The position numbers and the translations under genes were made by a program. Positions 13,947 through 24,440 of a stretch of DNA of 33,185 nt are shown one piece after another. Source of the stretch: Planctomycetaceae bacterium (GTDB lineage: Bacteria; Planctomycetota; Planctomycetia; Pirellulales; Pirellulaceae); contig PBOG01000221.1 of the NCBI GenBank assembly GCA_002724245.1, positions 1-33,185 of the forward strand, read 5' to 3'. Each line of letters begins with the position of its first letter. Position 1 is the first letter of the stretch. Below the pieces are notes generated by a model. That model was not told where the DNA came from. It was given only the letters and a program-made list of their open reading frames with translations, and searched no databases.

Positions 13947-15203
13947 TTAGTCTGCCTTGCCGATGCGATAGAGGTTCTGGTCCGAGCGAATAAGTAGGGA
14001 TTGCTGGGTCACGCCATAAGAGGCCAGAGTGCGTTCGCCCAGCTTGTTCGTCGAGAGCAGTTCAAATTTCCGTGTCGCTCGGATGACGTTGCCCACCCCA
14101 GTTTCGCTTTGGAAATAGATTTTTCCTTCGGAGTAGAGAGGGGAAGCCGAGTACCCGCCGCCGCCACTCAGGCGTTGCTGCCAGTGCTGTTTTCCGGTTT
14201 TGGCGTCCAGACAACTGGCGACACCTTTGTCGGAAACCATGTAGAGCTCCTCTCCCACCACGAGCAGCGAAGGCGTATGTGGGATTGCCCGCTGGCGTTC
14301 CCAGCTGACGTGGGTTTTCGTCACGTCACCACTTCCGTCTGGACGAATGGCAAGCAGATGAGGAGTTCCATATCCGGTGCACACGTATACGAGCCCGTGG
14401 GCGAAGATCGGTCGCGGGATTACGGAGTAACCTTCTCCGTAGTTGACGCGCCAAATTTCCCTTCCGTCGGCCGGGTCGTACGCGCAGACGGCGCCACTAC
14501 CAGGGCTGATGATTTGCAGCTTCCCAGCTACCTCGATCACCGCGGGAGTCGTAAAGGAGAACTTCGCAGATGCGCCCGTGGTACGCGTGACTTTCCAAAG
14601 GACTTTGCCTGAGTTCTTGTCCAGTGCGACGACGAACGGATCGGAACCCCCATCGCAGCTGAATACCAGGCGATCGCCAACGATGACCGGTGAGCCACCG
14701 TTTCCGTGGACGGGTGGGTAGTTCAGTTCACGATTGCGCCACACAATCGTTCCATCGGTTTTCGTGCAGGCGGTACCCTGGTGTCCCCAATGCAGGTAGA
14801 CCCGGTCACCTTCGATGATTGGAGTCGGGCTGGAATGACCGTTTTTGGTGTGGATCTTGGCAGCGGTACTGCCGTCTTGGCGAAAGATTTCAACCGTCTT
14901 GGTGATCTCGCCACTGCTGCCGTCAAGTACCAGCATTTGCAGGGAGTAGTCTTGCTCGGTATTTGCAACAGGAACCGCTGCCGTGACGATGATCTGACCT
15001 TGGTGGATGACCGGCGAAGACCAGCCTTCACCCGGAATGGCCTGTTTCCAGGAGATATTGTCCTCACCTGTCCATTGGACCGGCAGGCCTGTCGCCTGCG
15101 AGTGGCCGTTTCCCAAAGGTCCGCGAAACTGGCTCCATTCCTCAGTCCAGGCAATCATGGGGGTCGCGAGCAGAAATACGATAATGACGGAACAGCGATG
15201 CAT
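13947..15203 (-). CDS. Exported PQQ-like beta-propeller protein
   Basis: A 418-residue protein with a signal peptide (MHRCSVIIVFLLATPMIAW, cleavage expected near residue 19). WSQFRGPLGNG follows, the usual opening of planctomycete PQQ-like propellers. The remainder consists of beta-propeller blades with typical turns: DGSSGEITKTVE, DKNSGKVLWKV, DPADGREIWRV and DAKTGKQHWQQ. Such proteins are paralogous to BamB and quinoprotein dehydrogenases but usually lack quinone catalytic residues, and their role is unknown. The ATG at 15203 was chosen because it opens directly on the signal peptide and has AAGGA about nine bases upstream; a longer GTG frame to 15386 adds no plausible protein. The downstream hydrolase begins 120 bp later on the same strand. 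Confidence 0.88.
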   Translation of the reverse strand: MHRCSVIIVFLLATPMIAWTEEWSQFRGPLGNGHSQATGLPVQWTGEDNISWKQAIPGEGWSSPVIHQGQIIVTAAVPVANTEQDYSLQMLVLDGSSGEITKTVEIFRQDGSTAAKIHTKNGHSSPTPIIEGDRVYLHWGHQGTACTKTDGTIVWRNRELNYPPVHGNGGSPVIVGDRLVFSCDGGSDPFVVALDKNSGKVLWKVTRTTGASAKFSFTTPAVIEVAGKLQIISPGSGAVCAYDPADGREIWRVNYGEGYSVIPRPIFAHGLVYVCTGYGTPHLLAIRPDGSGDVTKTHVSWERQRAIPHTPSLLVVGEELYMVSDKGVASCLDAKTGKQHWQQRLSGGGGYSASPLYSEGKIYFQSETGVGNVIRATRKFELLSTNKLGERTLASYGVTQQSLLIRSDQNLYRIGKAD

Positions 15204-15460
15204 GCCTGGATCCTTGCAATGAGTGCGGCGGGATACATGTCTGAAGGCGGGTGATTTCAGTGCCGGTTTCCGTTGGCGATGTGTCGTAGAGGTCGCACCT
15301 TTGCCCGTGTTCGGGCCTGGGCGACCGCGTTTGTAAGAAACGACACGTACCGCTGTGAAACAGGAACCCCAAACAGAGTAAGCCACACCCTGTCAGGTTG
15401 CAAGCGACGACGTGGCGGCAAGAGACCGGGGGCCGGGCCCCAGACGTCCCGCGTCGGTCA

Positions 15461-20784: not shown

Positions 20785-20956
20785 TCGGTTGATTCTTCTG
20801 ATCCATGGCAACCGGATGCGTTCAAATGGATGAGGAAATTCGGCACGCCCCGGCGGTGATCTGTCCCCGCGGTTGCCGAGTGCTGGTCTAGAATGCATAT
20901 TGCACGCTCTCTGTTGATGTGCGCGCAGTTGGTTTCGATTGAAGAGAATCCACACG

Positions 20957-22006
20957 ATGGCCGGTTTGACCTACAAGGACGCGGGTGTTGATCTGGATGT
21001 CTACACCGAGTCGATGTCTCGTTTGCCAAAGTTGATGCGGCGCACGTTTTCCCCGCGAGTACTCAGATTGGACGGGGGATTTGCGGGGCTCTTTCAGCTT
21101 GATTTCAATAGCCGGCTGTTTTCCCGTAATTATTCTCAGCCGGTACTGGTTTCGGGTACCGATGGCGTGGGGACCAAGCTGAAAGTAGCCCAGCTGACGG
21201 GTTGCCACTCGACTGTTGGCATCGATCTCGTTGCCATGTGCGTCAATGATGTACTCTGCTGTGGCGCCGAACCCCTGTTTTTTCTTGATTATGTGGCGAT
21301 GGCCAAAGACGATCCGGCGCAGCTCGAACAGATCGTCCAAGGGATTAGTGATGGCTGCGTTGACGCCGATTGTGCCCTGTTGGCGGGAGAGACGGCGATC
21401 ATGCCCGATCTCTATGCCGCAGGTGACTATGATCTGGCGGGTTTTTGTGTGGGGGTAGTCGAAAAACGAAGCTTGATCGATGGCGCCGCGATTGCGGCGG
21501 ACGACGTGCTCATCGGCGTCGCCTCCAGCGGCTTGCATTCCAATGGCTTTAGTTTGGCTCGAAAGATCGTCTTGGAACACGCAGGTTTGGGAATCGATGA
21601 TCGGATTGAGGAGTTCGGGCAGACGGTTGGCGAAACCTTGTTAACGCCCACTCGCATCTATGCGCGGGCGGTACGGCAGATTCTCGGTCATTACAAGGTC
21701 AAGAACGTGGTCCATGGAATCGCCCACATCACGGGCGGAGGTTTGTCTGAAAACCTGGCACGTATCGTGCCGGCGCATCTGCAGACTGTGGTTGATCGAG
21801 ATGCATGGCCGGTGCCTCCGGTGTTCGACTGGCTGCAGCAATTGGGTGACGTGTCTGCGGCAGAAATGGAACGTGTTTTTAATATGGGCCTCGGCATCGT
21901 GCTGGTCGTCAGCCCTTATTTTTCGGAGAGCATCATGCGGATGCTCTCCGATGCCGGCCACCCCAACTGGCAGATTGGGCACGTGGCCGCTGCCAGCAGC
22001 AAATGA
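20957..22006 (+). CDS. purM: Phosphoribosylformylglycinamidine cyclo-ligase (AIR synthetase)
   Basis: Catalyses the ATP-dependent ring closure of FGAM to aminoimidazole ribonucleotide in purine synthesis, cytoplasmic. The 349-residue length is normal. Motifs are YKDAGVDLD at the N-terminus, [13 protein letters not shown] at 66-78, [36 protein letters not shown] (GGETAEMP in many bacteria), [16 protein letters not shown], and [16 protein letters not shown] in the C-terminal domain. The ATG at 20957 is used; the six-codon extension to TTG 20939 adds nothing of the family. A TAGAAT hexamer at 20889-20894 could be a -10 element, but no clear -35 accompanies it. It converges with the dsbD gene. 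Confidence 0.96.
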
Positions 22007-22067: not shown

Positions 22068-24440
22068 TTACTTGAGTGCGGTCTGTCGAGCCTCTCCGGT
22101 TTGACTGGCGGAGGGGCCAGCCTGCTCCAGGGCTTCCAGCACCTGTTCCAACGTGATCAGTCCATCCATGGTCTTGGGTGGGCCGCCGTCGGCCGGGTAG
22201 ATTGCCACGAAAGGAATAGCTCTGCCGGCATTGCCCAGTTCGAGCAACAGTGCGTCCACATCGGGCGCGGGTTGTGTCTTGTCGGCTTTGATGGCGATGA
22301 CATCGTTCTTGTTGATCAGTCTTTTGGTTTCCCAGCGGTTCAAGGCAACTGCCTCGTTAAATTTGCAGGTGCCTCACCAGTCTGCCGTGAAGTCGACGAG
22401 AATCGTACGCCCTTCCGCGCGATAGTTGTCCAGCGATCCGCGGCTATAAGGTTCCCACGAGAGCTCATTCATCGTGAGCAAATAAGGCACCAGGTAAAAC
22501 GCGGACACTGCAGTCAGCACTGCGAAGGAAGTGCCGCCTGCCCAGGCCCGCATTTTCTGGGCACCTGTCGCGGTAAAGGGTGTGCGACCAATTAACCAGC
22601 ATGAAAAGCCGAGGGCTACGAGCAGACTGAGTGCCTGCACGGTGTACTGCTTATCGAGGAAAAAGAAGATGAACACAACCGTTCCCATGAGTACGAAACC
22701 CATGACTTCCTTGAACGTGTTCATCCAGGCTCCCGGCTTGGGGAGGATACTAATCAACTTGGGAAAGGCCCCGATCAGCAGGTAAGGTGTCGCCATACCC
22801 AGTCCGACACAGGTAAACGTGATGTAGTTCATCACGACCGGCTGTTTGATCGCCCAGCCAATGGCAGGGCCGAGGAAGGGGCCGGTACAGGGGGTGGCCA
22901 GTACAGTGGTCAACGCGCCTTTGCAGAACGCTCCAAAATAGCCTTCCTTTTCAGTCAATTCGCTCGCCTTACCGCTGCCGACGAGCCCCGGGATGGGAAT
23001 TTCCCAGACACCGAGCAGGCTCAGCCCGAACACGAATACGACAGCCATCAAGACGACATTGAAACCTACACTCGAAAATTGGTCTCCCCAGCCGACCTGC
23101 AGAAAAAACGCTGTCGTAGCGAGAATCCAGAAAACAAAGAGCAGCCCCAGCGAATACCAGAAATTGAGGGCAAATACCTGCATCCGGCTTTGTCCGGCCT
23201 GTTGGACAAAGGCCATGATCTTGAGCCCAATCACAGGGAGCACACAGGGCATGACATTCAAGATGAGACCTGCCAGAAAGGCCAGAAACAAAATGACGAC
23301 CGGGTGCATGCCTGCCAGCGAATCGCTGCCGGCGGCCACCTTGGGAGCCACGCGTTCACGGACTGTCGAGTACTTGCTTTCCTGAAAGGTCAGGAGCACT
23401 TGTCCGGTCTGTTCCTCATCGGCGACCACCAACGTTGCCTGGAATTGCGCTGCCGTGGGAGGATCACAGCCCTTGGCGTCACAAGTCTGGTAACCAATGA
23501 AGCCGCCGATCTGGAATTCGCCTGGCGTGGCATCCTGGGGAACCGTCAGATCGATCGTCCAGCTGACCGGTTGTTCGTGGTAGTGCTGAATGGGTTGTTC
23601 TTTCAGCCCCGTTTCTTTCTCGACGGGCTTCGCGGAGGCGGTGACAGGTCCGGTTACCCACCCGGCGTTTTCTGTCAACAAGATGAGGGTGGGCTCGGTT
23701 AGTGCCTGGTCGTCCTGTTTGGCATACGCGTAAATGTGCCATTCCGCGTCTGGTTCGGCTGTGAGCGTCACCCGCACGGTGCTGCCAGGGGTTGCGACCG
23801 CGGGTTCCAGGTGTCCCCGCAGCGTGACATGAGTCAGCTCGCCACGGTGTTCACCACTGACATAGAAACCGCCGAATTGGATGGGTACGTTTTCATGTTC
23901 GATAGGCAGGCAAGTGCCGTTGGTTGTACAGACCTGGCCATCAAAAAAGACCTCAATAGCAAGTTTTTCCGGGTCTGTGTCCGCCGCCAGCTCAATCGGC
24001 GCGGTAAACACCACGGTTTCATCAAATTCCTCGATGGGAACGCCGGGATAGATCGGGTCGTCGTGACGGTACGGTTCGCGATCGGGCCGAAATGGGCCGA
24101 TCACTTTGAATGCGGGCGATTCGGTGACCGTGATCTGGGAGCGTTGCGGTCCACCGTCGGGTTGCGTTTGGGAATAGATGTGCCACGTAGGAGCACTTTG
24201 GACGGTGATCGCGAGACGCCCACGTCGCTGACCTTTTTCTACTTGAAAGGATCCGTCGAAGACGACTTTTTCGTCGGGTTCTGTACCGGGTAACCCGGTT
24301 CCAGCGAGTGGGTCGAGTGGAAAACCGAACCCAGGATCTGCGGTGGCATCCTTGTCTGTGCCCTCTTGCGACCAGCCTGGAGCGGTCGCATTAGCCAAGG
24401 TCAGAAGCAGGCCCAGCGTCAGTAGTGTCAACCGATGCAT
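22068..24440 (-). CDS. dsbD: Thiol:disulfide interchange protein DsbD, probable selenoprotein (UGA at the thioredoxin CxxC)
   Basis: Transfers electrons across the inner membrane to periplasmic thiol proteins. Read with the in-frame TGA as selenocysteine, the product has 790 residues. Order: signal peptide (1-24); periplasmic DsbD-alpha-like region with Cys pairs in VCTTNGTC and TCDAKGC; a membrane domain from about residue 385 with the redox cysteines in NVMPCVLPVIGLK and ATPCTGPFLGP; and a C-terminal thioredoxin domain. There ILVDFTADW is followed by TGA (codon 689) and GTCKFNEAVALNRWETKRLI, so the expected CxxC reads UGTC with the second cysteine Cys692. The domain continues normally to the cis-proline (RAIPF) and a TAA stop. 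Conventional calling gives a 688-residue truncated DsbD plus a 91-residue orphan in the same frame. Sequencing error or a nonsense mutation are the alternatives. Confidence 0.82.
22341..22356 (-). promoter_or_regulatory. Candidate bacterial SECIS hairpin in dsbD
   Basis: Immediately downstream of the TGA the mRNA reads CGAGGC-AGUU-GCCUUG: a six-pair stem (one G-U) closed by an AGUU loop. The stem begins 17 nt and the loop 23 nt after the UGA. Bacterial SECIS elements are described as a short stem-loop just 3' of the UGA within the coding region, with a G among the first two loop bases; here the second loop base is G. The element would recruit SelB with Sec-tRNA. No folding calculation was run. 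Confidence 0.6.
22374..22376 (-). other. In-frame TGA, candidate selenocysteine codon 689 of dsbD
   Basis: On the minus strand the codons read GCA GAC TGG TGA GGC ACC TGC AAA, giving A-D-W-U-G-T-C-K. The TGA is at the position of the nucleophilic first cysteine of the thioredoxin motif. TGA also serves as a normal stop in this genome (typA, DUF1501 and purM), so general reassignment of the codon is unlikely. Confidence 0.75.

Follow-up and report, generated by a model that had tools for sequence, protein, structure and literature searches.

A DsbD-type transmembrane reductant conductor from a planctomycete with a probable selenocysteine at its catalytic site

The gene at positions 22068 to 24440 on the minus strand of the window, by which we mean the whole stretch of 33,185 nucleotides that was analyzed, is read here as coding for a DsbD-type transmembrane reductant conductor (Sec-DsbD), in which selenocysteine (Sec), inserted by SelB recoding, replaces the nucleophilic cysteine in the motif U689-G-T-C692 and takes part in a DsbD relay. 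We give this reading a probability of about 0.9. On sequence comparison, the assignment of TGA codon 689 (22374 to 22376, minus strand), the first place of the UGTC redox motif, to Sec is strongly supported by the translation, the codons of homologues and alignment with solved structures, and Sec very probably occupies the catalytic site. The first-pass annotation had proposed a probable selenoprotein, which the alternation of TGA and cysteine codons, the sel genes and a TGA shared at this position by 20 genomes bear out. DsbD is a central electron supplier of the periplasm, and the Sec form would put selenium into a transmembrane electron conductor.

Reading frame and domain architecture

Translation of the minus strand from 24440 to 22068 yields 790 residues followed by TAA, and the TGA at codon 689 is the sole interruption of this one long frame, as first annotated. 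The codon lies in the context LVDFTADW-TGA-GTCKFNEAVALN and is followed by 101 residues before the TAA. It aligns with the first cysteine of the CxxC motif in the solved C-terminal domains of DsbD, namely 2fwe of E. coli and 6dnu/6dnl, which we take to be the domain from Neisseria; ADW-U-GTCK here corresponds to ADWCISCK in 6dnu and ADWCVACK in 2fwe, which agrees with the earlier placement of the TGA at the redox motif of the DsbD thioredoxin domain. The open frame alone is weak evidence, since 101 stop-free codons have a chance of about 0.025 (~2.5%) at the base composition of the window, and since the window contains 19 TGA codons, that of codon 689 included, that join a frame of at least 120 codons to an open stretch of 60 or more codons beyond it. 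One of the other 18 (15252 to 15254, plus strand), in an ORF that runs antisense to 13947 to 15386, even reads UxxC, which means that chance can produce the motif by itself. The TGA at 22374 to 22376 is distinguished from the other bridging TGAs, judging by the alignments, by homology and conservation.

If the TGA were an ordinary stop, translation would yield a DsbD of 688 residues that lacks a functional thioredoxin domain, or the gene would be decaying and the 3' part a remnant. TGA does serve as a stop elsewhere in the window, as had been claimed at first annotation: it closes 7 of 18 larger ORFs that were listed by hand, including the AIR-synthase-related (Pfam) and probably ThiL-like ORF 20939 to 22006, and the 19 bridged frames, to which the gene itself belongs, show that such arrangements are not rare here. 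However, the part after the TGA is conserved, C692 included, and fits a DsbD-type thioredoxin profile, and the TGA at the same codon in other genomes, the stem-loop and the sel genes described below also stand against this reading, which we consider very unlikely.

The read-through product exceeds the Pfam cut-offs for DsbD_N (36.5 bits; cut-off, 25), DsbD_TM (73.6; 27.1) and Thioredoxin_7 (43.1; 27). Together with conservation across the aligned rows, the first two families delimit an nDsbD-like domain (residues 65 to 184; 23889 to 24248, minus strand) with Cys171 and Cys177 and a DsbD transmembrane domain (residues 382 to 591; 22668 to 23297, minus strand) with Cys399 and Cys518, whereas Thioredoxin_7 and the matches to DsbD structures define the thioredoxin-fold, cDsbD-like C-terminal domain (residues 668 to 750; 22191 to 22439, minus strand). 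All three DsbD relay pairs, C171/C177, C399/C518 and U689/C692, are thus present, and Cys399, Cys518 and C692 are each cysteine in 64/64 rows. Sec-DsbD shares with the DsbD proteins represented by 2fwe and 6dnu/6dnl the three domains, the three cysteine pairs and the acidic residues at positions -6 and +7. It differs from them in the Sec-for-Cys replacement, in an extra N-terminal region with a cysteine pair, and in its score of 119.4 bits against NF001419 (protein-disulfide reductase DsbD subfamily), which is below the cut-off of 330 bits; four models of NCBIfam release 20 match Sec-DsbD, none of them at cut-off. The extra region (23406 to 23873, minus strand; Cys320/Cys325) has a weak DsbD_N likeness (E 0.041; 14.3 bits, cut-off 25) and is possibly a tandem nDsbD-like domain. 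Its pair (CDAKGC) is cysteine in all aligned rows, several rows being gapped there. A search of the gene's own genome returned a single match to Sec-DsbD, and therefore showed no equivalent with Cys that might serve as a backup.

TGA and cysteine codons among relatives

The catalytic codon is TGA in 7 of 30 loci, the gene's own included, and TGC or TGT in the other 23. After this set had been widened by fetching further TGA-flagged genomes, TGA was found at exactly codon 689 in 20 genomes (own included), which according to their group codes represent 13 genera and 3 families of the order. One of these is a second genome of the same genus, whose protein shares 81% identity. TGC or TGT is present in all 44 Cys comparison rows, which are what is left of 50 after removal of four repeats (L045, L046, L049 and L056) and two sequences from genera already represented (L061 and L072). 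A scan of named genomes, confined to the best 80 of 588 loci, of which 79 were mapped (all except L169), gave 8 TGA and 71 Cys forms; this set overlaps the first, at least L106 appearing to repeat locus L089. Its TGA carriers are metagenome-assembled genomes (MAGs) designated Planctomycetota bacterium (two, one of them NIOZ-UU7), Mariniblastus sp. (two), uncultured Pirellulaceae bacterium (two), Planctomycetaceae bacterium and simply "bacterium". These neighbors suggest that the host of the window is a member of Pirellulales.

The first-pass annotation had named Cys/TGA alternation among homologues as evidence for its reading and random stops downstream as evidence against it. The alternation was found at exactly codon 689, and the loci mapped in the first and the widened set list no further TGA after it and before the natural C-terminus, which lies at +92 or later. 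Two genomes at first flagged as Sec carriers, G133 and G262, were discarded: they have TGC or TGT at the catalytic codon, and the flagged TGA is the natural end at +92; likewise, the TAA flagged in G129 is the natural end at +92 of a gene with TGT. At E <= 1e-20, a survey of the phylum found matches in 19 of 392 genomes, with a TGA flagged in the own genome only, the query being too strict to show absence elsewhere. The 281 plasmid records returned by tblastn all had less than 60% identity (Pantoea, for example, 34%).

These data also bear on the possibility that a sequencing or assembly error, or a mutation of this strain, turned TGC or TGT into TGA. The own genome is a draft of 287 contigs, but the TGA is shared by the second genome of the genus and by 18 further genomes, and a SECIS-like hairpin is present in all 19 scorable TGA genes. 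The probability of such an error is close to nil.

A quick tree was built from 64 rows without the catalytic codon and the stem-loop columns; all 20 Sec rows fall inside one group of 28 (SH-aLRT 97). Placing the Sec/Cys label on this tree needs 8 changes, at least 7 of which are forced by starred branches, with the caveats that the stars of quick trees are less trusted and that L037 (a Sec row) and L043 form long branches. Shuffled labels needed 17 changes on average, and in 0 of 500 shuffles were there as few as observed. The tree does not separate gains of Sec from losses.

Sec and Cys forms differ around the motif. The tryptophan that precedes it (own codon 22377 to 22379) is present in 44/44 Cys rows and 11/20 Sec rows, the others having Gly (5, four of them near relatives from one genus) or Ser (4). 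Among the best 80 of 588 named-genome loci, this Trp is replaced by Asn in 2/8 Sec rows, both from Mariniblastus, and is missing in 1/71 Cys rows, L116, which has Gly. From these alignments, the WCxxC rule seems to be relaxed or replaced where Sec is present. L116, from a Planctomycetia bacterium MAG, combines the Cys form GPG-C-IIC with NEKLAL and has flanks like those of some Sec forms; its sequence is perhaps that of a Sec-to-Cys reversal. Position -6 is Asp in 20/20 Sec and 42/44 Cys rows, whereas position +7 is Glu in 19/20 Sec rows compared to 10/44 Cys rows; the +7 codon also lies within the SECIS stem, so this contrast has two possible causes.

The loss of the tryptophan (Gly or Ser in 9/20 Sec rows, Asn in 2/8 of the named set) indicates a reshaped site, as would be expected if Sec were inserted into a protein that reduces some other periplasmic substrate directly and feeds no nDsbD-type relay. 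However, the relay cysteines are kept in the Sec rows: Cys171 in 20/20, Cys177 in 18/20 (the remaining 2 are gaps) and both Cys399 and Cys518 in 20/20. We consider a direct reductase unlikely, and a DsbD relay with Sec at its C-terminal site is the preferred reading.

Stem-loop and selenocysteine insertion machinery

Downstream of the TGA, a bacterial SECIS stem-loop, CGAGGC-AGUU-GCCUUG, is predicted at 22341 to 22356 (minus strand), its apical loop lying 23 nt past that codon. The bSECIS model, in the available text of PMC13188914, comprises a loop of 3 to 9 nt with G in the first two places, a stem of 4 to 16 bp, a spacing of 16 to 37 nt and a minimum free energy threshold of <= -7.5 kcal/mol. 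The hairpin fits the loop, G, stem and spacing criteria; its energy in isolation is -7.4 kcal/mol, compared to the threshold of -7.5, which is reached by 2 of 19 TGA genes. For the comparison between forms, TGA and Cys genes alike had to begin the loop with G followed by G or U, and the spacing could vary from 16 to 37 nt; the counts refer to 44 Cys genes and to the 19 TGA genes without N, L086 having been left out for its N. In each of the 19 TGA genes a hairpin was found, its apical loop starting 22 to 23 nt past the TGA. Hairpins of <= -5 kcal/mol occur in 17/19 TGA genes and 0/44 Cys genes, those of <= -4 kcal/mol in 19/19 and 2/44, respectively, and in the named genomes (best 80 of 588 loci) the <= -5 kcal/mol class comprises 8/8 TGA and 0/71 Cys genes. 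This restriction of the stronger hairpin to TGA genes is a further argument against an ordinary stop. The 45 nt after the codon have a mean fold energy of -10.2 in TGA genes (n = 19) versus -6.8 in Cys genes (n = 50; p 1.4e-4).

The stems vary on both sides (GAGGC/GCCUU, GAGAG/CUCUC, GAGCG/CGCUC and UUAGAAC/GUUCUAA), a covariation that was judged by eye. The own gene and that of the same genus use the same codon at 323 of 638 positions with a shared residue, and their sole run of at least 8 identical codons, 695 to 705, covers the stem-loop. Folded to minimum energy, the own 44 nt (-13.6 kcal/mol) pair differently from the hairpin. Synonymous recoding gave an equally good hairpin in 5% of the draws for the own gene and in 0.4 to 8% for the seven others tried. 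An Rfam search gave no match to a SECIS family.

All four genes whose presence the first-pass annotation had proposed to check, selA, selB, selC and selD, were identified in the own genome, which is 98.8% complete. The selA (560.9 bits) and selB (366.8 bits) genes are adjacent on contig C55, and tRNA-Sec (selC) scores 70 bits with the anticodon tca. The selD gene (350.8 bits; L082, G000:C89:28294-29220) has an in-frame TGA of its own near the gene start, ASCAG-TGA-AGK, taken to be a Sec place by analogy with the UxxK motif in Table 1 of PMC13188914. In the other TGA genomes, selA is above cut-off in 17/19 and selB in 16/19; the two that lack selA carry selB and the three that lack selB carry selA, so that at least one of the two is found in 19/19. 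With the own genome, selA and/or selB accompany the TGA in 20/20 cases, which likewise argues against an ordinary stop. In genomes G115 (L086) and G120 (L084), a TGA gene and selB were found and selA was not matched; completeness is 62% for G120 and 96% for G115, with 8% contamination in the latter.

A full-length product would also result if another tRNA, or readthrough, placed Cys or Trp at the UGA. Against such decoding stand the TGA codons that terminate other ORFs of the window, the joint presence of tRNA-Sec, SelA, SelB and SelD, the in-frame TGA of selD itself, and the SECIS-like hairpin 3' of the TGA, and we regard it as highly improbable. Conservation, the shared TGA, the sel genes and the hairpin thus led us to reject a pseudogene, a read error and non-Sec decoding in favor of insertion of Sec.

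Across the order, selA is above cut-off in 82 of 296 genomes. In this sample it was found in 11 of at least 13 TGA genomes versus 71 of 283 others (Fisher p 2e-5), a contingency test that ignores relatedness, six of the 13 belonging to one genus. G085 and G039 contain selA, keep the Cys form and fall into the same clade as the Sec forms; genomes of this kind indicate that the machinery does not force the use of Sec.

Proposed electron route and relation to known selenoproteins

SelB with Sec-tRNA(Sec) would recode the UGA, helped by the stem-loop 23 nt downstream. Cytosolic thioredoxin would hand electrons to Cys399/Cys518 in the membrane, from where they would move to the U689-C692 pair (a selenenylsulfide when oxidized) and then via the N-terminal Cys171/Cys177 to periplasmic substrates, a route that we infer, like the topology and the attack by Sec itself, from E. 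coli DsbD. The first-pass annotation had placed selenium at the periplasmic or cytoplasmic exchange step. By homology, Sec would be located in the periplasmic C-terminal domain, and the exchange step would be the periplasmic one.

In E. coli, cDsbD receives electrons from the membrane domain and passes them to nDsbD; the pKa of its Cys461 thiol, 10.6, is raised by Asp455 and Glu468, is the highest reported for the nucleophile of a thioredoxin-family CXXC motif, and guards the reduced domain against side reactions, according to the text available of PMC3961690. Asp683 and Glu696 occupy the places in Sec-DsbD that match Asp455 and Glu468. Sec is described as having a lower pKa and as being reversibly oxidized (PMC11431864, available part). 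A plausible gain from Sec would then be a residue far more acidic than Cys at the Asp683/Glu696 site; the increased acidity might come at a price as well, given the protection that a high pKa affords the reduced domain. Given the record pKa of the E. coli domain, natural Sec/Cys pairs can show what this guarding costs and why some lineages escape from it. A wider scenario would be that selenium has reshaped the periplasmic reductant hub of the clade, Sec in cDsbD and the loss of a Trp that is nearly invariant elsewhere turning the guarded relay thiol into a fast, oxidation-resistant selenolate that can also reduce substrates directly, with lineages switching in both directions according to selenium supply. 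We consider this scenario unlikely.

The annotation's statement that no full-length Sec-containing DsbD of this type was known to its author overstated the novelty, because related sequences had already been listed. We take the conserved domain cd02953 to be the DsbD-gamma domain of CDD. The 2008 inventory of the GOS metagenome, in the part available, contains a UxxC family in cd02953, "Trx-like 2 (Thiol disulfide interchange protein)", with 22 in its first count column, taken as the number of Sec sequences (PMC2398784). Like Sec-DsbD, this family has UxxC, placed in the putative DsbD-gamma domain; it differs in consisting of metagenome reads, and the same text names no host and describes neither a full-length architecture nor a membrane domain. 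A "Thiol:disulfide interchange protein" selenoprotein is also listed in the available part of PMC1794560. In the accessible text of a 2026 inventory of 119 families (PMC13188914), DsbD is present only as the TsoB fusion, next to a thiol:disulfide interchange protein of PF13098.

TsoB, a rhodanese/DsbD fusion-like selenoprotein (NF045694), has a DsbD-like part as well, and Sec-DsbD matches its model weakly at positions 171 to 530, with 149.5 bits (144.8 in the genome search) and below the cut-off of 805. In contrast to Sec-DsbD, which leaves the first 170 model positions unmatched, TsoB has a UxxxxU motif with two Sec (PMC13188914, available text). The selenocysteine thioredoxin (PF00085) and the PF13098 protein of that inventory resemble Sec-DsbD in having UxxC in a thioredoxin fold; on our assumption they are soluble forms. 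Sec-DsbD differs from them in that Thioredoxin_7 is the best Pfam family for its C-terminal domain, PF13098 scoring 16.7 bits against a cut-off of 27. DsbD is mentioned by name in none of the available parts of PMC4807772, on planctomycete selenoproteins, PMC5029168, PMC12013277, PMC1794560 and PMC1088965. On these comparisons, full-length Sec-DsbD belongs to a selenoprotein type of which earlier inventories had made only passing mention. The full-length architecture, the planctomycete clade with repeated Sec/Cys switching, the SECIS variants and the frequent loss of the Trp before Sec appear to be new, none having been found in the literature searched. A gene caller without a fitting model would be expected to end this protein at 688 residues and thus to drop its thioredoxin domain.
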